From positions 1 through 40,213 of the IMG/VR virus record IMGVR_UViG_3300042197_004690: a stretch of 40,213 nt of DNA; one strand, given 5' to 3'. Position 1 is the first letter of the stretch. Every line of letters starts with the position of its first letter. The position numbers were made by a program, and so were the translations under genes. Below the pieces are notes generated by a model. That model was given only the letters and a program-made list of their open reading frames with translations, did not search any database and was not told where the DNA came from. Source of the stretch: a virus. Of the stretch, positions 9,500-36,630 are shown in pieces.

Positions 9500-10031
9500 G
9501 AAGAAGTATAATTTTGAATCGGGTGGTAATACTCGTTATGATTTAGAGGAAACTTTAAAAGATATTGCTTCGAAAGAAGTTGATTTGCCGTTGAGTATTA
9601 AAACGCCATTGGAAATTTCTACTAAAGATGATTTATTTAAAATGCATTATAATTTAAAAGATGTATTGAATGATCAAATTAAGAATTTGATATATACAGA
9701 ACCTGGTGAAAGATTATGTTTTCCAACAATTGGTACTAGTTTAAAGAATCTTGTTGCACAAAATGATGATTTAAACGCAACAATTGATAATATTAGTAAT
9801 GAAATTAAAAATGTTTTGACACGTTATGCGAGTGGAATAATTTTAAATAGTGTATCGGCTGTATACAGTGAAGAAGAAAAAAGAAAATACAATATTCCGG
9901 TTGTGATTATTACAATTAATTACTCTTTTTATGAGAAAATGAGTGTGTATAATGATTTAAATTCAGCCAGCGTTTTTAATGTTGTTAAAAGGGATTCATC
10001 AATGAATATTAAAATAGGATTAAACAATTAA
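9489..10031 (+). CDS. 25: Baseplate wedge subunit, GPW/gp25 family
   Basis: From the ATG at 9489 the protein has 180 residues. The gp25/GPW core spans about 45-165: an N-terminal helix (DLFKMHYNLKDVLNDQIKNLIYT), the family hallmark EPGER at 71-75 followed by CFPTIGTSLKNLV, a helix at about 93-113, and strands ending in VVIITINYSF. gp25-family proteins form the inner baseplate wedge and hold the gp6-like protein. The longer reading from ATG 9438 is rejected: 9489 has GGAAGGTGA upstream, starts MAIKKKYNF like neighbours starting MAI, and its overlap with the previous gene is only 11 bases. The gp6-like gene follows after 10 bases. Confidence 0.88.
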   Translation: MAIKKKYNFESGGNTRYDLEETLKDIASKEVDLPLSIKTPLEISTKDDLFKMHYNLKDVLNDQIKNLIYTEPGERLCFPTIGTSLKNLVAQNDDLNATIDNISNEIKNVLTRYASGIILNSVSAVYSEEEKRKYNIPVVIITINYSFYEKMSVYNDLNSASVFNVVKRDSSMNIKIGLNN

Positions 10032-16900: not shown

Positions 16901-17352
16901 GATTTTCGATTGAAATGTCAAACGTGAAGCATTTAAACGAAGATATTGGTAAATTATTTGAATCAATTGATTTTTTTGCTGATATTATTTCAGACTTTGG
17001 ATCTTTAAATGAAGGTCATTATAATAAATTTGAAAAGTTTTCAGATTTTTATTTTAAACGGATTAAAAGTAATCAAATACAAATAACACCTTTATATGAT
17101 TTATATCAGATTTTCGATAATGTATTAACTGAAATGTTACATGATTTTATTTCCAGTCGCGTTAAATTTAATAATAATGTTTATGTGATTGAGTCTCACG
17201 CCTTAGAGAGACATAAATTTCATTATAAGTTTATGGAAAGTCATATTGTGATGAAAGGGGATATGAATATCTCTAATTTAAATAATTCCCGTAAATCTTT
17301 TAATTATTTAAAGTTAGAAGGCAGAAGATTACAGCAAAATAATCTTTTTTAA
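13900..17352 (+). CDS. Large baseplate protein with two LamG-like domains and a gpI-like motif
   Basis: The 1150-residue protein starts inside the previous gene. Residues about 40-110 (FDTYDGLFNTQQFLGSVDFSDFSKHCFFNSAVSKVEYVFNQIYDDFPVDGT) follow a pattern shared by large baseplate proteins of marine myophages. A first LamG/ConA-like domain spans about 158-366 (SSFAFDLRLWIEYDQI, NSWQHLSICINNN, FLGLIDEFRYLHQ). A second spans about 700-870 (YSLEFFIHYPF, NGQISFLKIWKNVLS). Between them, about 610-645, ILQSKGTKNAIRSIFNSIGV resembles the GT-x-x-A-I-x-x-I-x-x-x-x-G motif of phage tail protein I and related wedge proteins. It probably forms part of the outer wedge and links it to fibres. It may be the functional equivalent of T4 gp7 (1032 residues), by position and size only. 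Confidence 0.6.
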   Translation: MGNLFSQKNTIDRKYQMDKNKRIGDASGWKQEKAENYAQYQFERFDTYDGLFNTQQFLGSVDFSDFSKHCFFNSAVSKVEYVFNQIYDDFPVDGTAYELEEFYKKLDGFGRYIYNQMNKNIGYLRFNNSYIEVQNKSGYITSFNRNNKIIEKLSKTVLNPGASSFAFDLRLWIEYDQIQTSNNPQVIFQYLDKNNGRKNGMSLFIKDFVNIGNIVYANIVFHVSNNTNNSKILAKFKVPVNSWQHLSICINNNRNNVLNNSKQIKVWLNTFELNEISIIQNFNINDFLEIDNSIKFVIGKGESHISTDEGGIYNLPISPDSFLGLIDEFRYLHQSIDQEWIIKNKDVNIFAQDTLKLYFKFNEPTGIYEKNMFCFDSSGNSLHSRIQLKPYIGNNPDPVLELRTIISSLRYNPQNLLQPRPSLKFEKDDDNPCLMPTFTANITLNNQILEEAKEYDTFNPNLIFKLFPKHYFEEGAQFEGLVESFKIDNSSAYYIFDATSSDDDTLNYPGQQKNEGVQTFAKLLLIWAKFFDEIKIYLDIMPRLIKIDYNNLNSADNAINFFLPLMAKNAGFEFKEIMNSPTSKILDGYIIGSDGVDKSEFTLRFVQNELWKRILINSRDILQSKGTKNAIRSIFNSIGVIPEEYYRFREFGKSEIRFVKNSLLQKIKNIKFFKFTNTNTNLRGDFNLSYLNSLMNYNTNSYSLEFFIHYPFLTKNEVMNETILIIKNVANDQNILKILFEKVRQQETGTLKAVFYKNDNSQEILEIENVNILNNKISHISLTVDNNDRAQRNITLNFQNNSKNSNLIQGNLTLFKNLSNSNTLRLFANTNKTIKLGYENFNGQISFLKIWKNVLSKDDLKMHALDVSSIANHEFQFLKYNKISDLLLLNLTLQDDHFHINTQSNIIYPIDYSENNILPSSQTELTYPFRISGNNNLKPIDYLTFQTTICYENDFKFDEPNVENKVNILSFQDENLINEFDTRPVPIYEVNYDKQKKNDVRFSIEMSNVKHLNEDIGKLFESIDFFADIISDFGSLNEGHYNKFEKFSDFYFKRIKSNQIQITPLYDLYQIFDNVLTEMLHDFISSRVKFNNNVYVIESHALERHKFHYKFMESHIVMKGDMNISNLNNSRKSFNYLKLEGRRLQQNNLF

Positions 17353-17370: not shown

Positions 17371-17386
17371 AGGCATGCCTCAGTGA
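17371..17386 (+). promoter_or_regulatory. Palindrome and mini-ORF at a GTG start
   Basis: AGGCATGCCT at 17371-17380 is a perfect 10-base palindrome. It holds an ATG at 17375 that reads ATG-CCT-CAG-TGA, and this TGA overlaps the GTG start at 17383. The AAAAAAGG just upstream is spaced correctly for the GTG and too close for the ATG. A role in controlling the start is possible but unproved. Confidence 0.3.
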
Positions 17387-18843
17387 TCACAGTTTACATT
17401 GAACCTAATACCATCTCACCTTTTGTAGATGTATCAGCAGACTCAGGAAATTTAATCAATTTTGTGATAAAAAGTCGTTATTATTTATCTTACGACAATT
17501 TATCAGTTGATGATATTTTTAACAACGAATATTATGATACCTATGAAACTAATGATGTTAGAGATAAAAAAGCTCTCCAGATAACCACCAGAACTACTCA
17601 GATTAATTCTGCGTTGCAAGATAATATTTCTTATGGATTTGCTCTTAAGTTATCACCAGAGATAAACGAGATCAAACATCCTACTTCCAAATTTTTTACT
17701 AATTTTAAAGAACAAGAAAATTTTAATTCATTTATCGACAATTATAAAACCTCTCCACTTTTCGAATGGGAAGAAAGAAGATTTACTGACGTTGATGATA
17801 TTATTTACAGTATTGATAATCAATTAATCTTAGATACAACCTCATGGGATAATGAATACAAAAAAAATTATGAAATAATCAAAAAATTAATGGAAAAAGA
17901 TTGGTATCAGAAAAAAACTTCTATTCAATCCTTAGAAGATCTAACTATCCGCGGATTAAATGACGATTTTAAAATGATGTATCCTCATTCTTATCGACAA
18001 GGTCCATTTAATGAAGTTTTTAACGATTATTGTTTACCTGTCATTTATAATCAAAAACACGGGTATTGGGAAAATACAAGCACTTTAAAAATTTTAAATA
18101 ACTATTGGGAAAAAATCTTATTAAATCTAGATGATCAAGAAAGATATTCTTTTATTTCAAAGTTGTTATATCCTATTATTACCAACAACGATATTCATAA
18201 TTTTTATTTCGGAGCTTATCTAGAACCTTTTGAAATTAGAAATCTGTTAGAATATAAAGTAAGATCTAAAAATCTATTAAACGGATTTAAATTATCATTT
18301 GTAGAAGCAGGTATTAATGCTAGAGGTAATACTAATATTATTTCTGACGTTATTACTAATACAAATGCAATTAACGCCTTTTCAGATGATTATGAGAATT
18401 TTTCAGATATAATTGATGTTGCCTTACAAACATCTACTTGGGAACAAATTAGAAAAAGTGCAGAAACCGGTACTGTATTTGATATTAATGGTAATATTAC
18501 AGAAAATCAACAAAAAATTATAGTAAATTTAGACGATCCTTATCCTTTATGGTCTCCAACTATTAATTTTCATTTCTTAAATTCTGACGAACATATTGAC
18601 CCTATACAACCTTTTAATGATAATAATCAAGCACAAATTTACGTTGTTCAAAATAACTTTTATGATGATATTACTGATGAAGATGTTAGAAATACTATCA
18701 CACAAACTATTGCTGACACTATTTTTAATCGTAAAAATATCATCGCAAATGATCAACAATATACACCTAATGGATACGACGTTGATCGATCAATTAATCC
18801 TACAGGACGTGATTCAAAAATTTACATAGGATTTAAGGAATAA
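17383..18843 (+). CDS. Unknown virion protein (GTG start)
   Basis: The 486-residue protein starts at GTG, 9 bases after AAAAAAGG, reading MITVYIEPNTISPFVDVSADSGNL. I do not recognise a family. The sequence is aromatic-rich (WDNEYKKNYEIIKKLMEKDWYQKK, NNYWEKILLNLDDQERYSF). Near the C-terminus it has YTPNGYDVDRSINPTGRDSK. A very similar Y-x-PNGY-x-x-D motif (YIPNGYNIDH) sits near the N-terminus of the next protein, 3 bases downstream. The two genes are therefore linked by sequence as well as by position and may interact or share an ancestor. No membrane segment or enzyme motif is seen. It is likely a baseplate or tail component from context. Confidence 0.6.
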   Translation: MITVYIEPNTISPFVDVSADSGNLINFVIKSRYYLSYDNLSVDDIFNNEYYDTYETNDVRDKKALQITTRTTQINSALQDNISYGFALKLSPEINEIKHPTSKFFTNFKEQENFNSFIDNYKTSPLFEWEERRFTDVDDIIYSIDNQLILDTTSWDNEYKKNYEIIKKLMEKDWYQKKTSIQSLEDLTIRGLNDDFKMMYPHSYRQGPFNEVFNDYCLPVIYNQKHGYWENTSTLKILNNYWEKILLNLDDQERYSFISKLLYPIITNNDIHNFYFGAYLEPFEIRNLLEYKVRSKNLLNGFKLSFVEAGINARGNTNIISDVITNTNAINAFSDDYENFSDIIDVALQTSTWEQIRKSAETGTVFDINGNITENQQKIIVNLDDPYPLWSPTINFHFLNSDEHIDPIQPFNDNNQAQIYVVQNNFYDDITDEDVRNTITQTIADTIFNRKNIIANDQQYTPNGYDVDRSINPTGRDSKIYIGFKE

Positions 18844-18846
18844 AAA

Positions 18847-21800
18847 ATGGCTAGAATTAAAAATAATATTACAAAATCAGGCGCTTCATTATTAAACGAG
18901 AGAACTCGCTTTTATAATAATCAAAATCAACAAATCAGACAACCTTATATTCCTAACGGTTATAACATTGATCATTTAATTACTACAACGACTGATTCAA
19001 ATAATGTAGTTAGAAGTACCTTTGCATATAATGATGAAAATACAATTAATTTTAATGATTTAAAATATTTTAATTTAAAGGAATACTTTGATGATAATCC
19101 TAACGAAAGAAATACACTTTCACAACAACTGGCCACACCTTCAACTTTTCATACTTTAAATATCAATACTAACACACTTGGTAATCATGATCAACGCGAA
19201 ACATTAGAAAAATTTTTAAAAAAAGGCAACTCAATAGAAGTTAAATTTAATGCCTTTAATGATAGAGAACACATTGAAAATAGTTTAGATAATCAGGATT
19301 TTATTAAAGGTGAAGGAAAATATTCTTTTTTAGATACTAATTTATATGAAGAAACCTCAGTTGAAATTGAATTAGAAGTACCAGCAGATGCTTTGTTAGA
19401 ATATACCGCTAAAATGCAATCACAAGATGGTACATCATTAGGTGTGTATGAAACTGCTTCTTATACCAAATCGCCTTATAATTTTAGAAAAAATTTTCCA
19501 ACTAATATTCCACGCAAAAATTCTCCTTTTTTAATGTATAATTTTGATAAAAAATGTTTTGAAAGTCGAGGATATTATGCTAGAACAGGTGGAAACGCAA
19601 ATCAATTTGAAGGTTTTGCAGATAGTCTTGTTGAAGATATAGAAATAATACCTGAATTAGATTTTTTAACAGTAACAGCAAATAATCAAATATTAGGTTT
19701 TAAAGTTGTAAATAATAATGCTTCTAATACTTCATTATTTCAAACAAAGATTGCTGACAATTTAAAAAACCATCATTTTGCATTAACTAATACCCCTATT
19801 AATCATTTGGATGGGGAAGAAAAACGGAATGATAATTATAATTATTTAACATTACCTACAATGCAGTTTGGTTTTCCTCATTTTCCTACATTTCATACAT
19901 TCGAAGATAATTTAATATCAATGAAAAAGTTTTTAAATAAAAATCTAATTGTAGATCGAGTTACAGTTGATTTAAATGTAAAATTGCAAGCTGAAATTTC
20001 AAATAATCCAAATGATTTCGAGGAAGAAGATCTAGATATTTGGGACGGTTTAAATTTTTCATTAAATTATTTTATTTTAAACGACAGCAAAAATAAAAAA
20101 GATTTAGGTTTAAATTTTTTATCTTTAAATCCACAACAATATTTTAAAGATTTTGAAATCGATAATCCACCTGATGAATTTTTATTTTTAAGTCAATTTA
20201 ATACAGTTAAACATTTTACAACTAAATTAATTGACAATTTAAATCCAGGCACTGTTCTTAATACTTTTCAAGCCTCAAAACAAAATTTAAAAATTCATCG
20301 TAAATTATGGGGTAATTTATGGGGGGAAGAAGGAGATCTGAATAGAAATTCTTTAGGCGTTACTGATATGCGTAATCGTATTGATGAAATTGCATTTAAT
20401 AAAAATATTGTGTCATTTGGAAATGTATTATTTCATGCTTCAAATCCTGAATTCATTGATAGCATTACTAATAAAAAACCTGTGTATAAATCAGACAAGT
20501 TAGTAAGATTTCAACAAATGAAAAATAACAATGATTTAGTTATTGATACAATTTCCGATAATATTTTAAAATCAGATCAAATAAATGAAAAAAGCGATTT
20601 AAATGCAGAAAATATTTTTTTAGATTTTGAAGATAAAATTAAAATTAATAGTTATGTTAAAAAGGCAGGGAGTTATCCTCGTTATTTAAATGCTAATAAT
20701 TTAAATTATCAGTTTGAAATCAAATCAACACTTAATTCAACACAACAATATTCTTTAATAGGTTCAGAACCTAATTTATTAACAGGAGAAAATATATTAT
20801 CTGAAATGACTTATAATCATACTCGTAATATGTTAAACAATCGACTTGACGGTAAAGATTTAATAAATTCACAATCTCAATTACAAAATGATATTACAAA
20901 ACGTATTATTGCTCGTAAGACTGCTAAAAGATTATTTAAAAATTTAAAAAAACCTGTTCCTTTTACACAGGAAGAAATCGATTTTTATTATATGAATTAT
21001 CAAGCTAGTGATTTAACAAATCTTCATTTTAATAGAACTAGTAATTTTTCACCTTATGTGTTAACACCTGATGATAATTTGGCTTTTTGTTTTTCGATTT
21101 CGCCTACTATTTCTCCTAAATTATTTAAACATTCATGTCAAATTAAAGCAGGTAAAGTTAAATTTACATTGCATGGTTATATGAAGAAGAATAACAAGAA
21201 GTTTCAGGATGACACTAATTTAAAAAATTTAAATCAATTAAATCTGAATACAGTTATTATTGGGGATAATTCAATTGTTAGTGATAATTATAACAATTTA
21301 GGTTATTTGACTGAATATATTGATACATTTAATGATAGAATTTTTAATAACACAGTTTTTCAACATTTTACAGACACAGACCCAAATATACCTCAAAATA
21401 TACCTTCAAATACTAATTATCGTAGAGTCATTGGATCAAAAATTAGGACAGGTAATGCATATAGCACTTATGTAAAACTAGAAAATAATCCTTTTTTCTT
21501 TTTAAATGAAGTAACAAGAAAAATTGAAAAATTTGAAGAATATATTTTTGATGATTTTAAAACCCATACTCAAATTTTTGATCTAATACTAAAGTTTTTG
21601 ATAGATAATCAGAATGGTAGCGACGTCAATATTTATAAGGCTTATGAAATTGCAAAAGAGTTAACATTTTATAAAGACAAAACGCAGCAGAACGTTTTAT
21701 TTTCTAACGCAACAACAAGTAATATTTTTAATTTAATTACTGATACAACTAATTTAATTCCAGACGTGACACCTCCTATTACTTATAAGGCGAAATTTGA

Positions 21801-22251
21801 TGAGATAGTGACAGCTCTGACTCAATCTTCTCCTAATTCAAATGCAGCGGCGATAAAAATTTTGGCCTTTTTTGTTTTTGCCGCTTTTCTTACACAAACG
21901 TCATTTAGTTCTATTGCAAGAATAGGACATAAGAGATATTTAAATTCTTTTGTGAAGTTAAAAGGATATGGACAGTTTAGAGATAATTTTGAACAGAGAT
22001 TATATACTTCTTTAATTAATGCTAATGGTGATTATAGTTATGTCGTTGAGCAAAAATTTATAAATGACGTTGATGGTACTGAGTTAACAAATTTAGGTAA
22101 TAGTTTGATACCGCATAATAAGTCAAAAACTTTGCAGTTGATTGATGCTGGTTTTAAATCTATTACATCTAATGGGGTTATTACACCTTGGAATGGGGAA
22201 GATTTTTATAATCGTCGACATGTCGTTTATAATGATATGATAACTGTTTAA
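18847..22251 (+). CDS. Very large unknown virion protein, N-terminal PNGY motif
   Basis: The 1134-residue protein starts MARIKNNITKSGASLLNERTRFYNN, then YIPNGYNIDHLI, echoing the end of the previous protein. Most of the sequence is Asn-rich with alternating short strands and helices and no known domain that I can see. At about residues 998-1018 there is a hydrophobic stretch (AAAIKILAFFVFAAFLTQTSF) that looks like a membrane or buried helix, unusual for a baseplate protein. The C-terminus reads GVITPWNGEDFYNRRHVVYNDMITV. It begins 3 bases after the preceding stop with a GGAATAAAAA leader. A virion role is inferred from its place in the structural block and its size. Confidence 0.6.
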   Translation: MARIKNNITKSGASLLNERTRFYNNQNQQIRQPYIPNGYNIDHLITTTTDSNNVVRSTFAYNDENTINFNDLKYFNLKEYFDDNPNERNTLSQQLATPSTFHTLNINTNTLGNHDQRETLEKFLKKGNSIEVKFNAFNDREHIENSLDNQDFIKGEGKYSFLDTNLYEETSVEIELEVPADALLEYTAKMQSQDGTSLGVYETASYTKSPYNFRKNFPTNIPRKNSPFLMYNFDKKCFESRGYYARTGGNANQFEGFADSLVEDIEIIPELDFLTVTANNQILGFKVVNNNASNTSLFQTKIADNLKNHHFALTNTPINHLDGEEKRNDNYNYLTLPTMQFGFPHFPTFHTFEDNLISMKKFLNKNLIVDRVTVDLNVKLQAEISNNPNDFEEEDLDIWDGLNFSLNYFILNDSKNKKDLGLNFLSLNPQQYFKDFEIDNPPDEFLFLSQFNTVKHFTTKLIDNLNPGTVLNTFQASKQNLKIHRKLWGNLWGEEGDLNRNSLGVTDMRNRIDEIAFNKNIVSFGNVLFHASNPEFIDSITNKKPVYKSDKLVRFQQMKNNNDLVIDTISDNILKSDQINEKSDLNAENIFLDFEDKIKINSYVKKAGSYPRYLNANNLNYQFEIKSTLNSTQQYSLIGSEPNLLTGENILSEMTYNHTRNMLNNRLDGKDLINSQSQLQNDITKRIIARKTAKRLFKNLKKPVPFTQEEIDFYYMNYQASDLTNLHFNRTSNFSPYVLTPDDNLAFCFSISPTISPKLFKHSCQIKAGKVKFTLHGYMKKNNKKFQDDTNLKNLNQLNLNTVIIGDNSIVSDNYNNLGYLTEYIDTFNDRIFNNTVFQHFTDTDPNIPQNIPSNTNYRRVIGSKIRTGNAYSTYVKLENNPFFFLNEVTRKIEKFEEYIFDDFKTHTQIFDLILKFLIDNQNGSDVNIYKAYEIAKELTFYKDKTQQNVLFSNATTSNIFNLITDTTNLIPDVTPPITYKAKFDEIVTALTQSSPNSNAAAIKILAFFVFAAFLTQTSFSSIARIGHKRYLNSFVKLKGYGQFRDNFEQRLYTSLINANGDYSYVVEQKFINDVDGTELTNLGNSLIPHNKSKTLQLIDAGFKSITSNGVITPWNGEDFYNRRHVVYNDMITV

Positions 22252-22300
22252 AACGATAGAAAGAATTTAAAGTTCCTTTAAAATTATTATTTTTGATAAA

Positions 22301-22310
22301 TATAAAAATA
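22301..22310 (+). promoter_or_regulatory. Probable late promoter (TATAAAAATA)
   Basis: GATAAA directly followed by TATAAAAATA lies in a 74-base gap, 25 bases before the ATG at 22326. The 12-base string GATAAATATAAA is identical to that before the gene at 26281. The run TATAAAAATAAA followed by A-rich TAAG recurs before the gene at 36631. The resemblance to the T4 late consensus TATAAATA and the shared flank support the call. Confidence 0.45.
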
Positions 22311-22325
22311 AAATAAGAGATAATA

Positions 22326-23495
22326 ATGTCAGGAATACTTGATAAAAAACAACGTTTGGTTGATTTTATATTAACTGCTGATGGTTATAAGCAGGTCGAA
22401 AATGGTGATTTACGTTTTGTTTATGCAACTTTGACTGATAAGGATGCTATTTATGATCGGCGACAAAACGAGTATAATGTCGCTGATTTAGACGTGATGC
22501 CTTTTTCATTTGAAGCGAACAGCAATTTTTTTGATAAATTAAATGTTGAGATCGATTTAAAACAAACAGCTAATTTTGAATTAAGAACTGAAATTGATGG
22601 ACAATATATTGATTTACGTAATAATGAATATCGGAATAGTATCACACAACCTGCCTCGGTGATATTTGATAAAATCGCGGGTAGTTTAACTGAAAATTTA
22701 ATCAATCAAAGAATTATTTTAACAGATAATTTTTTTAATTTAAATACTGTTACGCAGGAAAATCATCGTATTTCTTTATACGTCTCAAAAGTCAATAAAA
22801 ATTTATTTCATATTAATGACGAAATTAATACAAATATTGTACAAATTGATATTAATTCTTTAAACAATTATTATACCTTAACAAATCAAAATAGTTTAAA
22901 TTTATCAAAAACATCAATGATTGAAGACGATCGATTTCAGCATAAATTAAATTATATGTTTTTACCTCCGTCTAATATGAATAGAGAAGTGATCACTAAA
23001 AACAATAAGATTGCAAATTCTTATAATTTGGCTGTTGATAATAGAAATCTGCATAAGGTCATTTTTAAAAATTTTAAATCAAACGACAATATTTCTACAC
23101 AGTTATTAAAAGATTTTAATAACGTAAATTTTATATCTAAAGATCAAGCGGTATTACAGTCAATTGACATTTTAAATCATGAAGATTTTAATATTGGTAA
23201 AATGCAATTAATGTTTGATAACAGAGAATATGACACAGAATTTGTTATTAATTTATCTGAATTGAATAATAGCAATGATGGCGTTATTTTTAATAAATTA
23301 TTATTCATTAATCATGGTGAAATATTTAATGTGAATCAACAAAAAAATGTGCAAGTTTATTCGGCTGGTAAATTGATTAGTTCTAAAAAAGAAATTGATT
23401 TTGATAATAACTTTGATAACAATTTAGATAATGGCGAATATTTGGTTGAAGATAATTATTTATTTGTAAATTTGTTTACAATTGTGATAGAATGA
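22326..23495 (+). CDS. Virion structural protein, DAVLT-type N-terminal module
   Basis: The 389-residue protein starts MSGILDKKQRLVDFILTADGYKQVENGDLRFVYATLTDKDAIYD. This can be aligned with the N-terminus of the protein at 34376 (MGFLDHTTNNIIIDAVLTERGRELLARNDGSFRIDAFAFGDDEVDY). The shared pattern is G-x-LD, then I-x-D/F-x-LT-x-x-G, then G-x-x-R, then an acidic end with Y. Proteins with that N-terminus are common structural proteins in marine myophages. The remaining 330 residues are Asn-rich and unrecognised. A probable late promoter lies just upstream and an AAGAGA site precedes the ATG. It ends with TGA, 15 bases before the next gene. Confidence 0.6.
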   Translation: MSGILDKKQRLVDFILTADGYKQVENGDLRFVYATLTDKDAIYDRRQNEYNVADLDVMPFSFEANSNFFDKLNVEIDLKQTANFELRTEIDGQYIDLRNNEYRNSITQPASVIFDKIAGSLTENLINQRIILTDNFFNLNTVTQENHRISLYVSKVNKNLFHINDEINTNIVQIDINSLNNYYTLTNQNSLNLSKTSMIEDDRFQHKLNYMFLPPSNMNREVITKNNKIANSYNLAVDNRNLHKVIFKNFKSNDNISTQLLKDFNNVNFISKDQAVLQSIDILNHEDFNIGKMQLMFDNREYDTEFVINLSELNNSNDGVIFNKLLFINHGEIFNVNQQKNVQVYSAGKLISSKKEIDFDNNFDNNLDNGEYLVEDNYLFVNLFTIVIE

Positions 23496-23510
23496 GAAAA
23501 GGAATAATTT

Positions 23511-26204
23511 ATGTTAAAAAAAACTGGTAATGTTTTTATAGGTAATTTACCTAATAATACACTTAACACAACGATTCCTTCTTTTTTAGGAAATGTTACA
23601 ATTGCTAATTACACACGTTATGAAAGAAACGCAAATATTTTTCGTACCTTTATTAAAATTGATGTTTTAAAAGCGAAAGAATTAGGATTAAGTTATTTTA
23701 AAACTGTAACTATTAATAAATTTGAGAATAGTAAATATGCAAGTTTGAAAAAGGGATATACGGGTTTATTAGAAGAAAATCAAAGAATTGATTTAAAAAA
23801 ATTTATTAGCGCGGATCAGCTTGATGTGAATTATGATTTAATTAAAGAAGATGTGTTAGGTCGTGATTTAAATTTAAGCGATTTTCATAATAAGTTCAGT
23901 ATTGAAAATTTTTCATCTCGTAAATCTTACAATTATAATGTGGGTTTAAGTTTAAATGCCGAATTAGATATTAAAGAATATCAGGATTTATTTTTTGAAT
24001 GTGCCTTTTCTAGTAATTTAACGCCTAGTACTTTATTTCCAGGCAGTACTCAATATGATTTAATCATTTATGCAATGGATAATAATGATCAGATCATTGA
24101 TGTTAAAAAGATTACAAATTTTAATACGGCCACAACCAATTGGAATATTGATAAAATTACATTTTTATATGATATTGATGATGTAGATTTTAATAAAATA
24201 TTTAATGTAACCTTTGATAATGTAATTCTTAATAATTTAAAAAGAAGACTTTATATTAATTTAACTGATAATTGCAAGGCCTTACGAGATGAATTAGGCT
24301 TTTATCCTATTGAGACAATTTCAATACAAGAAAATTCTAATCCTATTGAAGTGCAATTAGATAGGATTAGAATTGAAAATGCATTTAAGGAAACTGATAA
24401 AATTACATTAGATTGTGAAACTGATTTAATGATATCCGCTGTACCTTTTGAATTAAATTATAAAATTTTTATGAAAATCTACGGTAGGAATGATTATATT
24501 ATTAAAAATTACGTTAATGCGATTACAAATCCACAAGCGATTTTAGGAATATCACAGCAAGAAAATTTAAATCGATATCTAAGAAATTCTAATGTCTCAT
24601 ATTTAGCCAGTTTAAATACTATTAAAATAGAATTATCATTATTAAAAATTGCTAATAACGATAATAGTTTTAATCCTTTCATTTCTAGCATTTTTATCAA
24701 TAATAATAAAGATAAAAATTTTGCAAATGCATGTTTCAATTTTATTCCTAACTCGTCATCACTAGAAAATTTAAATTTAACGGGAACTTTATTAAAGAAT
24801 ATAATTACAACAACAAAAAATGAAGAAGAAAATTCTTTTATCTTTTATTTGAGAAATTATTCTGACAATCCTTTCACTTTAAAATTTGTATTTGAACAAG
24901 ATTTTGAAACTTATGAATTAAATTTTGATATTAAATCAATTTACGGATTAGTAGATTATGAACAATCCTTAACAATTACTAATAAAAACAATTTTATAAC
25001 TTCAAAATTTTCAAATTTAGATATTCAATATAAAATTAAAATCAAAAACTTTAAAAATTCAAATATCAATTTAAATAGATTTTTATCATTAAATTATGAA
25101 AATATATTTTTACAAGAATTACAAAATGGAACAACTCAATTATCAAGAGATTTTGAAAATAACATTTTTGTAATTGTCAAAAAATCAATTTTACAAGACA
25201 ACATACACATTAAAGATAAATTTTATATCTTTAATAAAGATGTTTTTGAAAATTTAAAATTACAAATTCAAACTGAAAATGATCTTACTTTAGATTTAAA
25301 TTTTAATGATAATGAAACAGTTAACGCTTTATTTTTCAAGACATTCCAATATGATAATGTTGATTTGACAAAAAATGTTAATTATCGATTTGAAGCCAGA
25401 ATTATGATTATTCCTATTGGGTTTTTTATTACACAAAACGATTATGTGACAAAGTTAAGAATTAAAGAATTATTATGCTTAAATAATATAAATCAACCAA
25501 TTCCATCAGCTGCACAAATTAATGAAATATTTTATATTTTAAAAACTATCAATGATAATAAATTTGCAGATTTAAATCAAGTTTATCTTTATAAATTATA
25601 TCAAAATTATTGTTTAAAAAATACTCAAGCCAATAATGAAATATTAATTGCAACAGCTAATCAAACTAATGTAAATGACAATCAGATAACATTCAGATCT
25701 GTTAATTATAATTTAAACACTTTAAAAACTCAAACTAAAAAGCTTGAGTTTATCCTTACATTTGATATCATTTCAAAAACATCTAATAATCTAACACTCA
25801 CATCAATTATCAATAATATGAAAAACTTATTTACACAATTTTATTTTAAAGATAACAACATTTTGACACCTACAACACAAATTATTCCGGAATTTACAAA
25901 TTTAGAAATCAAAAATGAATTAAATAATACTTCATTTAAATGTAATATCACAGCGAACACTTTAACTGTAATTATCACTTTAAATATTTCAGCTGAATTT
26001 TTACGTTTTTTAAGTTTAGCCTATAACCGTTCAAATAAAAATTTTGCACCTTATACTTTTGACTTTTTAAATCAAAATCTTTACTTAAAATTAAATTTAC
26101 CTGATTCACTAAGCATAAATATCGGCAATCAATCCGAAAAAATTTCTTTTAGAAATATTGAAAATCAATACATTTTATTAGATTTCTATCCTATCCTAAA
26201 TTAA
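23511..26204 (+). CDS. Large unknown beta-rich virion protein
   Basis: The 897-residue protein starts MLKKTGNVFIGNLPNNTLNTTIP after an AGGA site. The sequence looks like a string of beta domains separated by short helical parts, with many Asn and Asp residues. I find no domain I can name, no signal peptide and no membrane segment. There is a beta-type region at about 150-300 (YNVGLSLNAELDIKEYQDLFFECAF, YDLIIYAMDNNDQIIDVKK) and an Ig-like looking stretch at about 455-500. It follows the DAVLT-module protein closely and probably shares its transcript. It ends 76 bases before the 2093-residue gene, where a new late promoter is predicted. The virion role is from context. Confidence 0.6.
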   Translation: MLKKTGNVFIGNLPNNTLNTTIPSFLGNVTIANYTRYERNANIFRTFIKIDVLKAKELGLSYFKTVTINKFENSKYASLKKGYTGLLEENQRIDLKKFISADQLDVNYDLIKEDVLGRDLNLSDFHNKFSIENFSSRKSYNYNVGLSLNAELDIKEYQDLFFECAFSSNLTPSTLFPGSTQYDLIIYAMDNNDQIIDVKKITNFNTATTNWNIDKITFLYDIDDVDFNKIFNVTFDNVILNNLKRRLYINLTDNCKALRDELGFYPIETISIQENSNPIEVQLDRIRIENAFKETDKITLDCETDLMISAVPFELNYKIFMKIYGRNDYIIKNYVNAITNPQAILGISQQENLNRYLRNSNVSYLASLNTIKIELSLLKIANNDNSFNPFISSIFINNNKDKNFANACFNFIPNSSSLENLNLTGTLLKNIITTTKNEEENSFIFYLRNYSDNPFTLKFVFEQDFETYELNFDIKSIYGLVDYEQSLTITNKNNFITSKFSNLDIQYKIKIKNFKNSNINLNRFLSLNYENIFLQELQNGTTQLSRDFENNIFVIVKKSILQDNIHIKDKFYIFNKDVFENLKLQIQTENDLTLDLNFNDNETVNALFFKTFQYDNVDLTKNVNYRFEARIMIIPIGFFITQNDYVTKLRIKELLCLNNINQPIPSAAQINEIFYILKTINDNKFADLNQVYLYKLYQNYCLKNTQANNEILIATANQTNVNDNQITFRSVNYNLNTLKTQTKKLEFILTFDIISKTSNNLTLTSIINNMKNLFTQFYFKDNNILTPTTQIIPEFTNLEIKNELNNTSFKCNITANTLTVIITLNISAEFLRFLSLAYNRSNKNFAPYTFDFLNQNLYLKLNLPDSLSINIGNQSEKISFRNIENQYILLDFYPILN

Positions 26205-26227
26205 AATATTTATTATCACGTATTTTT

Positions 26228-26242
26228 TGATAAATTTTATCA
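26228..26242 (+). repeat. Perfect 7-base inverted repeat next to a late promoter
   Basis: TGATAAA at 26228-26234 is mirrored by TTTATCA at 26236-26242 around a single T. It lies 9 bases before the TATAAATA box. A TTTTTT run precedes it instead of following it, so it is not a standard + strand terminator. On the minus strand it would be followed by an A-rich to T-rich switch. It might be a weak terminator or a protein site, or chance. Confidence 0.25.
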
Positions 26243-26251
26243 GTCGATAAA

Positions 26252-26259
26252 TATAAATA
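26252..26259 (+). promoter_or_regulatory. Late promoter, exact T4 consensus TATAAATA
   Basis: TATAAATA matches the T4 late promoter -10 element in all eight positions. It lies in a 76-base gap with GATAAA immediately before it, and transcription would begin roughly 10-15 bases before the ATG at 26281. The gp55-like sigma factor in this window is the expected reader. This is the strongest promoter candidate here. Confidence 0.6.
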
Positions 26260-26280
26260 AAATCTCGTGAGTATAGTGTA

Positions 26281-29200
26281 ATGGCAATCTTTAAGAAAGA
26301 TTTGGAAAATATTAATTCATTAAATGAAAAAAATCGTAAAATTAATGTCAGATCTGAACTTTTACAATTTATTAATTATCAAAATGATGCAACGGATTAT
26401 GATTTTCAGGATTTTAAATTTGAATTAGACATTAATTTTAAACAAAAATTTGATAAAAACAAAAACATCTTAAGGGATTTCTCTCGAAAAAGAATTGAAA
26501 AAGATACTTTCAATAAAACATTTTTAATTTTCAGCAATTTTACAACTCAGAATTCTTCAATTTATGCATGCATGGAAAGACTAGTCTTTCAAGTTAAAGA
26601 AGAAAATGATCTATTCAACAATGAATTTTTAAGCGTTTCAAATAATATTAAAAACTCTAAAAAAAACGCCTTTAATCTTTTACATGCCTTCTTATTAAAA
26701 GCCAATAAAATTACAAATGTAATTGATGATGCGACCTTAATATCTGAAAAATCAATTGTCTCAACTACAATTAAAAATTTAGAAAATTTAGAAATTAATG
26801 ATTTTAATATTACTGATAAAAAATTAATCAACACTTACAAAGAAGTTGTAAAAAACCCTGTTAATTTTTTACAGACATATACAGGATTTAACTTTATTAA
26901 AACTAATGAAAATAATTTAATTCAAAATGATAACAAACCATTAAGTTTAATGTCTTTGTCAACAGCAATTAATAACGTGATAGAATATTCTTTTGATTAT
27001 GCTGCTTGTAATTCTTTATTTAAAGGGATCTATACTGATTCTGAATTAAATAATAAATTAAAAGCAATTGAATTTACTAATGTACCTATTCTTGAAAACG
27101 ATATTATAAAAGAGATTTTACCTATTAAATACGTTGACAATTTTGAGTTCATTAATAATGTAGAAATGTCAAATTTAATTACACAATTTAATGATACTTT
27201 TAAAAATTTAAAAAATGTTAAAAAATCAGAATTAGAAAAGAAAATCCCCTCTGACATTTTTACATGGGAAAATTTGATTTGTAGTGACAATGATGTTGAT
27301 AATTTATCTTTTACTTCAAAAGGAATGTTAAATGTTACTGATAAAGTTGATGCGATTTCAATTTTAAATACAACAGATGATAATTTATTGCCTTACATTA
27401 CGTTATTAAATACTATTACTAATCCTGAAAAGGTATCTCTAATTGCTAATCGAGATAAATCTAGTTTAGCAATGTTAGAACAATTAAATCTTATTGCGAA
27501 TCATTTGAATTCAAATCAATTAAAATTAACTTATGGTGTGGTAAATAAAACCGCGAATAATATTCCTGATTATTCAAATATTAAACATCGACCTGTTATT
27601 GATGTTAATAAAAAAGGTATTTTAAATTATCATTTTGAAGATATTGACAACTTTACCAGTAGTATTATTAAAACTCGTTTAATTTGTAACAATATCGTTA
27701 AAAAATACAAAAAATATAGTTTAAATAAAGGACATGATGCGGCTTCAGTTAATCCTTTAAACAAAATTAATTTATTTCTTAGTAAAGAAGGAATGAGGCA
27801 AAATATTGAAGATAATATAAAGTCCATTAATCTGATTGATGCAATTATTAAAATTAATAAAAGTAATAATCTAAATCAGTTTATGGAGTCTTTTAATACC
27901 CAAGATCATATTTTTGAAATTTTTAATAAAAAATTTAATAAAATTAATCAAGATTTAATTATCGTTAATAATGCAATTTTAGGTGAGTCAAACGCCGATG
28001 ATTTTATTTCACCTAATTTTCAAAATGTTACAAATTTAAATAATGATATTAATAAAGATACAATTAATATTGGCAATCTTAAAGAACAAATGAAATCAAA
28101 CTATAATAACATGAAATCATTTGTGAATGAATATTATAATAATCAAAATATCTTCTTTAAAAATTCAGCGACTTTTTTCCAAGAAATCATGAAGGTTTGT
28201 GCTAATAATTTTAAATGGCATTTAAATAAAAAGAATAAAACAAAAATGTCCTCAGATCGAGCTGATTTATTAAATAACGCCTCAATTCTTTGGTTATTTA
28301 ACGATGCTTGTTCTGAAATGACATTAGCGCAACGGGAAGTATTTCAAGAACAATTTGTGAACTTATTAATTTCATTTTTATACATTAACAATAAAAATCT
28401 AACTTCTTATAAAAATGCTTATACAGTTAAAGCTGAACAAATTATTTTAAATCAAGGCCCTACCCCTGCAACCACCATGGAATTAGCTCCATTTTTTAGC
28501 TTTTTTACAAATGAACAACAAATTGCAACTAATTCCGGAACATTTGCAAAGAATAAAGCAATTCGACAACTTGAAACTGGTAATATCAATAAAAAATACA
28601 ATGAATATTATAACGTCGCTGAAAATGTTTTTGAAACGAACGGGAAAAGTTCACACTTTTTATCAATTCCAATTCAATTATTAGATAATAATCTGAATAT
28701 GTCATATAACTCAGGCCACAAATTAGCTGATACAGTTGATTTAGATTATATTGATACTAATGGCGTTAATACCGATAACGTTAAAATCTTTAATGAAAGA
28801 AAAAGAAATATTTTATTAACAGGTTTAAATACTTACAGAAAATATATCGTTGATCAAAACAGCATTACATATGATGACACAATGCATTTTTTTATACCTC
28901 AATTAACATTTAAAAAAATATCATATGGTAATAATCAACATAAATTTGAATATTTTTTATATAATTCAGCTATAGCTAACACTTATTCAAATAATGTCAA
29001 TGCTAGTTCATATGATTTAATTCAAATTTTAATTGATACCTTTGGAAATAATAATACAACCATTGATATTTTAAAGCAACTATCATACAATTTTGAAACC
29101 CAAAATTCGTTTTTAAACGTGTTAAATTTTGGAAATCCATATAATGTTGAAATAGAAAATGACGCTTTAAACAATAATATTTTTTATCAATTAACAAGCT

Positions 29201-32200
29201 TATTTAAAGAACTAATCAATAATTTAAACATTACAGGTTTAAATTCATTTAATACTTTATTTACACAACTTGAAACTAATAACACAAATAACATTTTAGA
29301 CTTAAAATTTATGATCAAAAATACATTAAAAATTGCATCATCAATTTATTGCAAAATGTTTAATACATTACAATCATATACCAATTTATCAGATAGAATT
29401 TCAGAAAGCAATTTTTTTCATGAGAATTCTCCATCGCAACAAAGATTTTTAAAGTCTATTTCATCTGATTATTTAAACAGAAATAATGACGCAGATTTTC
29501 AATTTTATTTAAATAAATTATGGGGATATTCTTCTAACGTTTTCCTCAATCAATCTGAAAATTTCACACAATTTACTGCTAATGAATTTAAGAAATATCG
29601 TAGCTTCGCGAGCAAAAAATTTGTATATTTCTTAAATGAAGTTTTAGGCATTGAGAAAAATGAAATAGAAATTTTAATGGAAAAAATCATGTCAGGTTAT
29701 GTTTTAAAACATAACGAAGGTAATAATTTTAATAATTTTCCATTATTAAATCAAAATACAGCAGTTAATAATTTCTTTAATAATACAATTAACACCAGAT
29801 CAAAAAGAGCTGTTGACTATAATATTTACTTAGCTATTGCATCAATCGCTCAAAAAAGTTTAAATGAAAAAAATTGTATAGAATTTATGATTAATCCTTT
29901 TGAAGAGTTTAATTTATATAATTCCACTTTATTTCAATTAATTCCTGGATTATCTAATTTTAATGATGGCGATGTTGATTATAATTTACAATTATCTTCA
30001 AATTTAACAATCATGAATATTTTTAAAGCTGGTAACAATTCTGATATTTTAACTAATAATAATTCAACAAGCTTTACATTAACAGATTTAGAATTAAGTC
30101 GTATGCAGGACTGTTTAATATCAATTGATTTATTTGATTTAACACGAAAAGATGCCTTAACAGATAATTTCAGAATACAAAACAATTTACAAAATATTAG
30201 ACGTGTGAATTCAAATTTATTGCCTGTATTAGCGAATACAACAACTGTATCAGGTAATGCAACTACATTTTTAAATAAAAATATTTATATTAATTTTAGA
30301 GATTTTACAGCCGATCTTAACATTGCAACTGATAATTTATCTACAGCATTAACTACAAATCAGGCTAGTCAAATCTCTAATAAAAGAAATTATAATGTTA
30401 AAACTAAATTAAATGCTTTAAATATTTTTGATTTATTAGTAGAAAACTCATTCGAACTTAATTTAAATTATCATAATGAAAATTTTATAAATTTTAAAAC
30501 TAATCAAAACGGAAATATCAGTTCGAACAATTTAGATCAAGAATTATCAGGAATTAATAATCCATCATTCAACTTTAATTTAAATTTAAATTCAGATCAA
30601 ACAGTCAATTCTACAAAACGCGTATCAGGTTTAAAAGAAAGTTATACATATGAAAATAATTTTATGGGATTGAATAATATCGTTAATATTCCACAGATCG
30701 ATTTAAATCTTAAATCAAACGCTAATCAACAAATGTTTAAACAAAAATATGTTGATATTAATTTAAATTGGTATAATCATGTAATTCATGGTTTAATTAC
30801 TAATGATATCGCTTTAGCAATGTCATTTGATCTTTTATTATACTATTACGATAATTTTGTAAATGACGTTGAGATCAATTTACAGAAATTACAAAATTCT
30901 CGCAACAAAAAAATAAATATTTTAAATTATAATTTGAACTTACAAGATTGTAGAAGTGTTTTAAATAATATTCCAAATATTGATACTAAAGAATTAATTG
31001 ATATATCAATTGATAATTTAAAATTACAAAAAAATTACATAAGTCAATTAATCAAATTTAAATCTTTACTAAATCTTACTTCTATTTTAAACGTAAGAGA
31101 TACTTTAGCAGCTGGTTTAGATAAATTTGTTGAAAAAATAGTCACCTTAAATAATCAAAATGAAAATGGCGATTTTTTTATGTCTTATTTTGATGATTTT
31201 TATATTAAGGAATTTTGGAATAGTTTAAAAAATGATACAAACCTTCAATTCAAAAATAAAATAAACAAAAACTATCAAAAGACATCGCAAAGTTATATAG
31301 TACCAAATCAAGCTGAAACAGTTTTAGGATCTCATATTTTAACTGTTGGTATTAATAATGATTATAAATTAGATAAAGATGATATTATTTTAATTAAAGT
31401 GGAAATGACTGATCATGATTTTCCGGAAATAGTTTGGGAACCTAAAATTTTTGAATATTGCGCTAGTTTTCATGATTTAGAAAATGCATTTTTACAACAT
31501 AGGAATAGCATTAATATACAAACAATTGATAATATTACTAATGAAAATGTACCAGTTGGTATTACATCAGTTTATAAAACATATAATATTAATGCGACTG
31601 CGCCTTTTGTTGATAATGGTATTACTTTAAAAGATGCTTTAATTCAAAATAAAACAAATAAAGTTGTTAATAATTTAAATGTAAGTAACAATATAGGATC
31701 AATTAATTATAAAAATGATACTAGCTATTTAAACCCAATCGTATACCAAAATAAATTTGATGAGATTTTAAATTTATTAACTGAATCTAATGAAGATTTT
31801 ATTTTCTCTAAAATTCCTCAAACCTTTAGAGAGAAGTTAACAATTACTGAATTAACAGCAATTCGAAATGATATTATCAAGAGATGTATTCATAATCAAA
31901 GAATGAATTTAAAGTTGAGTAAAATTAGTAAATTATTATCAGGGTTTGAACCTACAACAAAATTTAGTTTAAAAAGTAATCAATGGATGAATGATTTATT
32001 TGTTTTAAGTGACATTTATCAATTGTTTATTGAAGATTTTGCAGGTAGTCAGGATAATATTAAAGAAATGTATCCTTTTACATATGAAGAAATTTCAAAT
32101 GCAGTTCAAAAGAATGCTTATTCATATATTACTTACAACTTTCATAAATTACATTTTACAACCAATCCTAAATTGAATGTATATTTGCAATTTATGTCAA

Positions 32201-32562
32201 ATTTAACTAAAGCTTTATTAGCTGATTTTACTGAAATGAGTTCTCATAATTTTCAAAAGATCTATACTTTAGCAGTTAATCCTAAAGATTTTATTGTAAC
32301 AGGTTTAAATGGTGGAAATAATAGTTTTATTCCTAATTCTTCAGAGTTAGAATTTCAACAAATCGTATATAATGAAACAACTAAAAATAAATTCTTAGAT
32401 GAAATTGGAACTGAAACTAGTTTAATTTTAAGATTAATTTCTAGTAAAACGATTGAAACTGATGATGTGACTTATTATCGTGTGATAAATAAAAAAAATA
32501 ATAATACGACATATATTCCTAAAAACGTTTCATATCGTATTTCCACCATGATTTTGGAGTAA
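26281..32562 (+). CDS. Giant unknown virion protein (2093 residues)
   Basis: This is the longest gene in the window. The protein is very rich in Asn, Ile, Leu and Phe and begins MAIFKKDLENINSLNEKNRK. Much of the length looks helical with beta inserts; no collagen, LamG or enzyme motif is visible. One segment at about 1673-1735 stands out as beta domain-like: VPNQAETVLGSHILTVGINND, then KDDIILIKVEMTDHDFPEIVWEPK. A similar VEM-x-DHD-x-P-x-IVWEPK pattern is familiar to me from marine phage structural proteins. Its own late promoter candidate lies upstream with only a weak GTGAG ribosome site. The size suits a tape measure, but its place downstream of the baseplate genes argues for a baseplate or long-fibre protein. 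It ends 3 bases before the next gene. Confidence 0.65.
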   Translation: MAIFKKDLENINSLNEKNRKINVRSELLQFINYQNDATDYDFQDFKFELDINFKQKFDKNKNILRDFSRKRIEKDTFNKTFLIFSNFTTQNSSIYACMERLVFQVKEENDLFNNEFLSVSNNIKNSKKNAFNLLHAFLLKANKITNVIDDATLISEKSIVSTTIKNLENLEINDFNITDKKLINTYKEVVKNPVNFLQTYTGFNFIKTNENNLIQNDNKPLSLMSLSTAINNVIEYSFDYAACNSLFKGIYTDSELNNKLKAIEFTNVPILENDIIKEILPIKYVDNFEFINNVEMSNLITQFNDTFKNLKNVKKSELEKKIPSDIFTWENLICSDNDVDNLSFTSKGMLNVTDKVDAISILNTTDDNLLPYITLLNTITNPEKVSLIANRDKSSLAMLEQLNLIANHLNSNQLKLTYGVVNKTANNIPDYSNIKHRPVIDVNKKGILNYHFEDIDNFTSSIIKTRLICNNIVKKYKKYSLNKGHDAASVNPLNKINLFLSKEGMRQNIEDNIKSINLIDAIIKINKSNNLNQFMESFNTQDHIFEIFNKKFNKINQDLIIVNNAILGESNADDFISPNFQNVTNLNNDINKDTINIGNLKEQMKSNYNNMKSFVNEYYNNQNIFFKNSATFFQEIMKVCANNFKWHLNKKNKTKMSSDRADLLNNASILWLFNDACSEMTLAQREVFQEQFVNLLISFLYINNKNLTSYKNAYTVKAEQIILNQGPTPATTMELAPFFSFFTNEQQIATNSGTFAKNKAIRQLETGNINKKYNEYYNVAENVFETNGKSSHFLSIPIQLLDNNLNMSYNSGHKLADTVDLDYIDTNGVNTDNVKIFNERKRNILLTGLNTYRKYIVDQNSITYDDTMHFFIPQLTFKKISYGNNQHKFEYFLYNSAIANTYSNNVNASSYDLIQILIDTFGNNNTTIDILKQLSYNFETQNSFLNVLNFGNPYNVEIENDALNNNIFYQLTSLFKELINNLNITGLNSFNTLFTQLETNNTNNILDLKFMIKNTLKIASSIYCKMFNTLQSYTNLSDRISESNFFHENSPSQQRFLKSISSDYLNRNNDADFQFYLNKLWGYSSNVFLNQSENFTQFTANEFKKYRSFASKKFVYFLNEVLGIEKNEIEILMEKIMSGYVLKHNEGNNFNNFPLLNQNTAVNNFFNNTINTRSKRAVDYNIYLAIASIAQKSLNEKNCIEFMINPFEEFNLYNSTLFQLIPGLSNFNDGDVDYNLQLSSNLTIMNIFKAGNNSDILTNNNSTSFTLTDLELSRMQDCLISIDLFDLTRKDALTDNFRIQNNLQNIRRVNSNLLPVLANTTTVSGNATTFLNKNIYINFRDFTADLNIATDNLSTALTTNQASQISNKRNYNVKTKLNALNIFDLLVENSFELNLNYHNENFINFKTNQNGNISSNNLDQELSGINNPSFNFNLNLNSDQTVNSTKRVSGLKESYTYENNFMGLNNIVNIPQIDLNLKSNANQQMFKQKYVDINLNWYNHVIHGLITNDIALAMSFDLLLYYYDNFVNDVEINLQKLQNSRNKKINILNYNLNLQDCRSVLNNIPNIDTKELIDISIDNLKLQKNYISQLIKFKSLLNLTSILNVRDTLAAGLDKFVEKIVTLNNQNENGDFFMSYFDDFYIKEFWNSLKNDTNLQFKNKINKNYQKTSQSYIVPNQAETVLGSHILTVGINNDYKLDKDDIILIKVEMTDHDFPEIVWEPKIFEYCASFHDLENAFLQHRNSINIQTIDNITNENVPVGITSVYKTYNINATAPFVDNGITLKDALIQNKTNKVVNNLNVSNNIGSINYKNDTSYLNPIVYQNKFDEILNLLTESNEDFIFSKIPQTFREKLTITELTAIRNDIIKRCIHNQRMNLKLSKISKLLSGFEPTTKFSLKSNQWMNDLFVLSDIYQLFIEDFAGSQDNIKEMYPFTYEEISNAVQKNAYSYITYNFHKLHFTTNPKLNVYLQFMSNLTKALLADFTEMSSHNFQKIYTLAVNPKDFIVTGLNGGNNSFIPNSSELEFQQIVYNETTKNKFLDEIGTETSLILRLISSKTIETDDVTYYRVINKKNNNTTYIPKNVSYRISTMILE

Positions 32563-32565
32563 AAC

Positions 32566-34329
32566 ATGAAAAATAATAAATTTGATATAATCAACTATGA
32601 TATCCCTAAATTTACTGTCGATGTGAAATTTACTTATCACACTTATGATGAGCAATCTGAAGATATTAATCCTATTAATGATTTTGATATTAATTTAAAA
32701 TTTGACGATGCCAATATGTTTTTATCTAATCGTATTTCTATTCAATTAAATGATTTACGCGATCGTTTACGATTTGATTCAAACATTTCATTTTTAAATA
32801 ATATTAATCAATCAATTGTATCGCAAATTCAGAATTTGCAAAATAAAAATTTAAATTATTTTATCTTTAATGACATTAAAGCGATTGAATACTTTAATTC
32901 AAATTTAAAGTTTGATGATAAATCAATTAGCTTTATATCAGGTTTAAATGACAAATATAGAAAAAGGATTTTAGAAGCGTATGATTTAAATACTAATTTA
33001 TATTCTAATTTAAGTCAATTTAATCAAAGAAATGTTACATACGGTAGTAATTATTTACAAGACATCATGCAAAATAAAATTAATTCTCAGTATGCCTATG
33101 ATTTTAAAAATGCTGAATTTTTATCTGATATCAATCAAATCGAGAATGAAAGAATTAATGCTGATTATTTATCAAAAAATATTTCCATTTCAAATGATAA
33201 AATTACAAAATTATATGAAAATTATAAATCTGATTCAAATGTATTATTTGATAATTTACCTTTATTAATCAATTTTAAAGCGTTAGATATTACTCCAGTG
33301 ATTGAAGATGATGCAAATTTAAAAAATGAAACAGGCGTTGCTTTTATTGGATTTTTGATTAAAAAACATATTAAAAATAAAAGTGGAGATACTTTTTTAG
33401 ATGCAGCATCACAATTTATTTATGTAGATATTAATCAACAAAATATTGATCAATTAGTTATTTATGATGACTTATTAAATTATACCAGCGCTTATTCATA
33501 TGAAATTATTCCTGTTTTTTATTTAGGATTATATCGATTTTTTGGATATGAAAATTTAAATTTTCCATTAATTTCACATCATTTAGTTTGGAATAATTCT
33601 CAACGAACAGAATTTGTAAGAGCTGTAGATTATTATGCGCCAGAACCACCTAACGGTTTAATTGCCAAATTCAGATCTAATATTTTTAAGGCTGAATTAA
33701 TGTGGTCACATCCTACTAATCCCCAAGGTGATGTAATTGGTTTTCAAATTTATCGACGTCAAAGATTGGATGAACCTTTTCAATTAATTAAGGTATATCT
33801 GAAAAAGAAAATATCTGATTTTCCTCATATGGAATTATTTGCAGATATTATGCCTAATAATTTAATTGAAATTTCTAAAGATAATACCTTAAAAGGAATG
33901 TATAGTTTTATCGATCACGATGTTGATTTAACTAAAGAAAATTATATTTACGCTATTTGTTCCATTGATGCCCATGGATATATTTCAAATTATTCATCAC
34001 AAATTGGATTAAGATATTCAAAAATTTATAATAATTTGATTGTAGATCAGGTGAGTATGCAAAATGCGCCTAGAAGTTATCCTAATTTATATGTGCAACG
34101 TAAATCACAATTGTTTGAAAATGATGATTTAATTTTTGACTTTACTCCAAACTTTAAAAACAAAGATAAAATTACTGTATACTTTACACCTGATGCATTA
34201 AATGTAAAAGATCCCATTAACAATACTCAATTTGAAATATTTAATATCGACAATCAATATCAACTATCTATTTCACGTTTAAATGACCTAGATACAAAAA
34301 ATATAAAATTTAAATTAAATTTACCATAA
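32566..34329 (+). CDS. Virion protein with fibronectin type III-like domain
   Basis: The 587-residue protein follows the giant gene after 3 bases, with GGAG inside the end of that gene as its ribosome site. Residues about 358-480 form an FN3-like domain. It opens with PEPPNGLIAKF, continues with FKAELMWSHPTNPQGDVIGFQIYRRQRLDEPFQLI, and ends with YIYAICSIDAHGYISNYSSQI, where the usual Trp, Tyr and final Y-x-I/V-x-A-x-D/N-x-x-G pattern is clear. The N-terminal 350 residues are unrecognised and partly helical. The C-terminal 100 residues look like another beta domain. FN3 domains are frequent in phage tail and baseplate proteins, where they help bind cell-surface polymers. The coupling suggests it is made with, and may bind, the 2093-residue protein. 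Confidence 0.65.
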   Translation: MKNNKFDIINYDIPKFTVDVKFTYHTYDEQSEDINPINDFDINLKFDDANMFLSNRISIQLNDLRDRLRFDSNISFLNNINQSIVSQIQNLQNKNLNYFIFNDIKAIEYFNSNLKFDDKSISFISGLNDKYRKRILEAYDLNTNLYSNLSQFNQRNVTYGSNYLQDIMQNKINSQYAYDFKNAEFLSDINQIENERINADYLSKNISISNDKITKLYENYKSDSNVLFDNLPLLINFKALDITPVIEDDANLKNETGVAFIGFLIKKHIKNKSGDTFLDAASQFIYVDINQQNIDQLVIYDDLLNYTSAYSYEIIPVFYLGLYRFFGYENLNFPLISHHLVWNNSQRTEFVRAVDYYAPEPPNGLIAKFRSNIFKAELMWSHPTNPQGDVIGFQIYRRQRLDEPFQLIKVYLKKKISDFPHMELFADIMPNNLIEISKDNTLKGMYSFIDHDVDLTKENYIYAICSIDAHGYISNYSSQIGLRYSKIYNNLIVDQVSMQNAPRSYPNLYVQRKSQLFENDDLIFDFTPNFKNKDKITVYFTPDALNVKDPINNTQFEIFNIDNQYQLSISRLNDLDTKNIKFKLNLP

Positions 34330-36590: not shown

Positions 36591-36630
36591 TAAATAAGTA
36601 TAATATAAGAATAACGAAGGTTGATTGACA

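Follow-up and report, generated by a model that had tools for sequence, protein, structure and literature searches.

In bacteriophage T4, the peripheral part of the baseplate is formed by gp8–gp12, which signal to the wedge that the host has been contacted (PMC3004832). A sheath built from two proteins is known in Pseudomonas phage PaBG (PMC7412058), and for the moraphages, large aquatic phages known as a lineage from metagenomes, Table 2 of the description gives lysine-tRNA ligase an occurrence of 24 (PMC12619734). The locus that we describe lies in an IMG/VR record analysed in its entirety (40,213 bases; the window), a fragment of a T4-like contractile-tailed phage. Judged by gp6, the nearest annotated genomes are immuto (MW353176), Mel-JY01 (PP395634) and LR756508, with a gp6 identity of 27–28%.

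Homologues of gp25 and gp6, the core of a T4-type baseplate wedge, adjoin in the window. They are followed by two conserved wedge-cluster genes, then by a block of six closely spaced genes on the + strand (17383–34329; A to F), and downstream of F by H, I, J and a RuvC-like gene. The features are:

9489..10031, + strand: gp25-like baseplate wedge protein (PHROG 261, 1.5e-8)
10042..11904, + strand: gp6-like baseplate wedge protein (PHROG 6, 3.8e-14)
11952..13907, + strand: g11952, conserved wedge-cluster protein, 651 aa; homologues in relatives, immuto and Mel-JY01
13900..17352, + strand: g13900, gp7-position protein, 1150 aa, with a LamG-like stretch; last gene ahead of the block
17383..18843, + strand: A, 486 aa; linker-like, variable length
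18847..22251, + strand: B, 1134 aa; probable adhesin or fibre protein in a hypervariable slot
22326..23495, + strand: C, 389 aa; H paralogue by its N-terminal module, probable connector
23511..26204, + strand: D, 897 aa; positional equivalent of the relatives' multi-FN3 rod protein
26281..32562, + strand: E, 2093 aa; large, fold unassigned, with a conserved C-terminal part
32566..34329, + strand: F, 587 aa; modelled as a tandem pair of FN3 domains behind a helical N-terminal part
34376..35161, + strand: H, 261 aa; conserved gene behind the block, of a type also present in the isolates immuto and Mel-JY01
35174..36553, + strand: I, 459 aa; fibre-like; C-terminal domain common to I and J
36625..39573, + strand: J, 982 aa; LamG-like lectin stretch (sub-threshold LamG) and the C-terminal domain of I

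The original prediction for this DNA had described six packed genes of these lengths behind clear baseplate genes. Open reading frames and translations confirmed the positions and lengths of all six, which sum to 5586 aa and are separated by gaps of 3, 74, 15, 76 and 3 bases, and the gp25 and gp6 homologues upstream matched PHROG baseplate wedge families. The further statement that T4 has far less protein at this point also holds, as gp8–gp12 total 1970 aa. The gp25-like frame opens at 9438 and has a likelier start (MAIKKK) at 9489; the gp6 family matches T4 gp6 in a profile comparison (E-value 4e-4). Compared with the nearest relative (G001), dN/dS was 0.19 for A, 0.36 for B, 0.19 for C, 0.29 for D, 0.32 for E and 0.19 for F. 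All six are thus under purifying selection and are real genes, with selection at its weakest on B and E. Pfam and PHROG searches returned no match at a useful level for any of A–F.

Upstream of the baseplate genes, positions 1659–2426 encode a collagen-like protein with sequence repeats; two reverse-strand frames (1619–2141) are probably mirror images of this repeat and not genes. Two adjoining paralogues of 425 and 251 aa follow (2399–4499), with N- and C-terminal parts in common and a middle insert in the longer; they look like lectin-type surface proteins.

Where the block occurs was examined in several collections. Against 50,697 phage records, a nucleotide search with the block found no relative, and tblastn with the window's B and E and the relatives' F, D and C found no match. 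A scan of IMG/VR with the window's E as a single query was also empty, because relatives of E are too distant, whilst a gp6 query gave 54 IMG/VR loci and a C query gave 80, of which 61 had distinct C proteins. C as a query found no match in 84,980 prokaryote genomes, and so gave no hint of a prophage or a host. In five near relatives (G001, G002, G003, G005 and G006), gene content and order agree with the window over the length that each contig covers. Distant relatives, on contigs of up to 293 kb, keep the arrangement gp6–g11952–gp7-position–A–B–C–D–E–F–H–I–J–RuvC.

Profile–profile comparison of near and far families backed homology for F (E-value 1.9e-41), C (1.4e-33), B (2.8e-10, over only 52 columns), A (5.6e-7) and E (two collinear matches, 1.7e-4 and 2.8e-3, with about 85 aligned columns), and also for H, I, J, g11952 and the gp7-position protein. 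Between the window's D and the far D proteins no sequence homology was detected by this comparison; they are linked by position and size only. Among the near-identical records, those of G003 (L081/L082) have E as two frames of 1347 and 727 aa compared with an intact 2105 aa in G001 (L080), and gp6 is 62 residues shorter in G003 than in G001; these differences may be assembly errors or real variation.

Synteny was scored in the 80 IMG/VR loci, which were selected by C alone. The contig reached F in 74, and in all 74 the genes from C to F lay on one strand. Exactly two genes (D and E) separated C from F in 69 of the 74; the five exceptions were a split E in L098 (a near relative) and L116, and small extra frames in L108, L117 and L140. 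Wherever the next gene after F could be read it was H (43/43). These counts are not independent events, since the 80 loci include near-duplicates. In a sub-lineage of four loci (L138, L163, L164 and L176), C–D–E–F–H stands beside PhoH-like, ClpP-like and helicase-like genes rather than gp7–A–B, so the stretch from C to F and H moves as a unit without adjacent A and B. Co-conservation of all six genes had been proposed as a check in the original prediction; the C–D–E–F order was kept in every testable locus, and A and B are not adjacent to C–F–H in these four.

Across 19 loci, the distance matrix of each of A, C, D, E and F was correlated with the gp7-position matrix (Spearman 0.72–0.87; reached in 0/500 permutations). 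As a comparison of sequence distances, this shows shared descent, not contact.

The fixed arrangement bears on a reading in which the block encodes long tail fibres with their attachment and assembly proteins, E and B being shafts and C a connector, and I, J and H making up the core periphery. Tail fibres often consist of large, fast-evolving proteins and often carry FN3 and lectin domains, the B slot of relatives holds fibre-type proteins, and the C-terminal domain of I and J is common to tandem repeated proteins of Mel-JY01. However, fibre cassettes swap, whereas C, D and F keep their order and number at almost every locus, and their divergence follows that of the gp7-position protein; only B behaves as a swapped cassette. 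We consider the long-fibre reading unlikely. The C-terminal domain itself is about 75 aa long and occurs in five consecutive Mel-JY01 proteins; its distribution in sequence suggests a common attachment or trimer-end module.

Structure prediction, which had also been proposed as a check, gave FN3 for the window's F and for the D of one relative. The model of F (mean pLDDT 67) placed FN3 domains at about residues 240–500, with a pLDDT of 84–93 in the second, best-modelled stretch, and Foldseek matched it to tandem FN3 proteins with E-values down to 3e-6. As modelled, F has the FN3 beta-sandwich fold in two tandem domains, so the FN3 domain predicted somewhere in the block could be located here; Pfam fn3 also matched one F-family member. 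The AlphaFold model of D from L173 (pLDDT 76.7, pTM 0.71) had FN3-type sandwiches along much of residues 10–860; its best matches to FN3 tandems reached a Z of about 11, covering one or two domains each. The window's own D matched nothing among PDB sequences. No known baseplate folds were among the matches listed for D and F, which is not evidence of difference. Nothing useful was found among PDB sequences with the profiles of A, C, D, E, F, g11952, g13900 and H; weak FN3-like matches there agreed with the later model. One D-family member (in alignment A5) carries a HINT/intein-type domain (PF07591, 1.8e-5; PF14890, 1.2e-4).

Protein E ranges from 1070 to 2105 aa in relatives. Its conserved C-terminal part corresponds to window residues 1679–1893, the C-terminal third is 41% identical to that of G006, and no PDB or Pfam match was found. 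A very large protein of variable length is reminiscent of a tape measure, whose neighbours would then be chaperones or hub proteins, and family searches named no tape measure in the tail region of G018. In that genome, however, the tube and hub genes lie ~35 kb from E and are followed by three large, unassigned genes (579, 1207 and 951 aa) in the usual tape-measure position, and the neighbours of E are FN3 rods. The helix-forming residues of the G018 E are also low, at 0.35 versus 0.57 for the presumed scaffold, a comparison of composition only. That E measures the tail is thus highly improbable, and we rejected the idea mainly on position.

A module at the N-terminus (MGILDxKxRxxDxxxTxxG) is common to C and H, whose profiles match over the N-terminal 45 columns (E-value 3.8e-7). 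By this homology C is a paralogue of H, and it is probably a connector that carries the MGILDxKxRxxD module. The N-terminal module of the original prediction is present and is probably that of C; the gene after the block has it too.

Protein A has a short conserved C-terminal region, of GxDSIAFGGLKK type in relatives. Across 31 family members, motifs of PFxD type (PFxD/E) were observed 84 times versus 12.2 expected after shuffling, a mean of 2.7 per protein, an excess that is over-counted because related proteins inherit motifs together. Among other block proteins there was a slight excess in C and none in D and F. A match of A to neural WASP among PDB sequences (E-value 0.009) was dropped as a chance match of a short low-complexity region.

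B is the fastest evolving protein of the block, with an identity of 0.58, many gaps and the highest dN/dS between the window and G001. Relatives have one to six frames in this slot, single frames reaching about 2900 aa, and the proteins there show a LamG lectin domain (PF13385, 2.5e-19), a match to a baseplate-assembly PHROG and fibre-like C-termini; LamG was not found in the window's own B. From these sequence features, B is probably an adhesin or fibre protein. The hydrophobic helix of the original prediction does exist, at residues 1000–1018, but it is absent from some B relatives and so is not a defining feature; as a lead to a membrane anchor it was dropped. In the window's B, this segment would suit a block that is not part of the virion at all, with late proteins acting in the cell or on an envelope and a late operon shared by position alone. 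Besides the patchy retention of the segment, the conserved place in a structural operon, the tight spacing, the homology of C and H and the FN3 and lectin domains all count against this, and we give a non-virion role hardly any credence.

The tail genes themselves lie outside the 40 kb window and were seen in relatives. In G018 (140 kb), portal, capsid, neck, two sheath genes, tube and hub are downstream of the block. The neck genes are next to sheath and tube, away from A–F, and this does not support the collar of fibres that had been among the structures first suggested. Two sheath genes (three in one relative) were present in 11 of 15 relatives, each an open frame of about 950–1190 aa. With the tube, hub, neck and portal genes, these oversized sheaths indicate contractile phages with generally large tail parts. 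The adjoining sheath genes are those of G008, G011, G013, G018 (G018:C1:54731-60651), G019–G022 and G024–G026, with three in G025, and are far larger than T4 gp18.

Among the nearest annotated genomes, far members of the gp7-position family matched proteins of Mel-JY01 (1336 aa; E-value 2.6e-21) and LR756508 (1400 aa; 4e-16). No match to T4 gp7 was detectable by profile comparison, with a single sequence on the T4 side. In immuto, Mel-JY01 and LR756508 the I-type genes come after the gp7-position gene, with an H-type gene ahead of them in both isolates. Immuto alone has one unrelated gene, of 403 aa, between the gp7-position gene and H, and neither immuto nor Mel-JY01 has A–F there. Profiles of F, D and C run against the whole of the three genomes found only the H-type N-terminal module. 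With C, D and F absent from the deposited phages and from these nearest annotated relatives, the lineage makes something that its described relatives lack.

We consider it reasonably probable that A–F make up the outer (peripheral) baseplate in one lineage of large, uncultured, T4-like contractile-tailed phages, in keeping with the enlarged baseplate that the original prediction had put forward. The block follows gp25, gp6, g11952 and the gp7-position gene, where T4 has gp8–gp12. Its C–D–E–F order is kept, its distance matrices correlate with the gp7-position protein, FN3 domains are found in F and in the D of a relative, and the fast-evolving B occupies a lectin/fibre-type slot, while the relatives' other contractile-phage genes are elsewhere. 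Against this reading, no sequence or fold match connects A–F with any known baseplate protein, FN3 is a generic fold, and H, I and J, right behind the block, could alone be the host-binding part.

From this cluster, its conservation and its domains we infer a location in the particle, a set of contacts and a role in triggering. D, E and F would form long arms or a ring on the gp6/gp7-type wedge, carried by C (and H); most of the mass of the outer baseplate would be E, and A would be a tether within it. B, with I and J further downstream, would display the host-binding domains. On host contact the arms would signal to the wedge and so trigger contraction, as gp9–gp12 do in T4. A–F would then work like the T4 gp8–gp12 periphery, with different proteins and about three times as much of them. 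The block may replace a T4-type periphery rather than add to it, as the second adhesion device of the original prediction would, since no relatives of gp8–gp12 were detected; the FN3 rods and the fibre and lectin proteins of the B slot suit either an enlarged baseplate or an adhesion device. A more specific proposal, which we put forward tentatively and regard as doubtful, is a superstructure not described before, in which FN3 arms (D, E and F) form a crown or ring with C/H connectors, the tether A and an exchangeable adhesin B, replacing a periphery of gp8–gp12 type and matched to a tail with two oversized sheath paralogues.

No relatives of B–F turned up in the 50,697 phage records, nor was an isolate that has them seen among the deposited ones. 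The lineage consists of large environmental myophages that are widespread, by the distinct C proteins of one viral collection, and that probably build much of the baseplate from proteins without known relatives. If the outer-baseplate reading is confirmed, contractile injection machines would have evolved their periphery anew around a gp6/gp25 core that is itself conserved, C, D and F would serve as marker genes for such phages, and B would be a clear candidate for determining host range.

Of the described systems, the moraphages are alike in being uncultured, large and aquatic and, in the part of the source used, in having T4-type gp6, gp25, sheath and PhoH (PMC12619734). A block like A–F is not mentioned in that part, the two lineages being compared by description and not by sequence. 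Lysine-tRNA ligase was found in 0/11 relatives, in records that may be incomplete, and not every moraphage has the gene. PaBG, like the relatives of the window, has two sheath paralogues in one phage (PMC7412058); its sheath proteins are about 58 kDa, as against the much longer frames here, and no kinship of the phages is implied. The gp6, g11952-type, gp7-position, H-type and I-type genes of immuto and Mel-JY01 are ordered as in the window; the two isolates differ in a gp6 of 28% identity and in the genome-wide absence of D and F, and of C save for the H-type module. In 198 profile comparisons with T4 gp7–gp12 and fibritin, for which gp6 was the positive control, A–F gave no match (best E-value 0.04); the T4 side consisted of single sequences, and A–F may therefore still be remote homologues of gp8–gp12. 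A–F have their position in common with the T4 periphery, behind gp6 and a gp7-position gene in a contractile-tailed phage. By analogy, they would share its part in host contact and the triggering of contraction, and they differ from T4 descriptions in the FN3 rods of the block.
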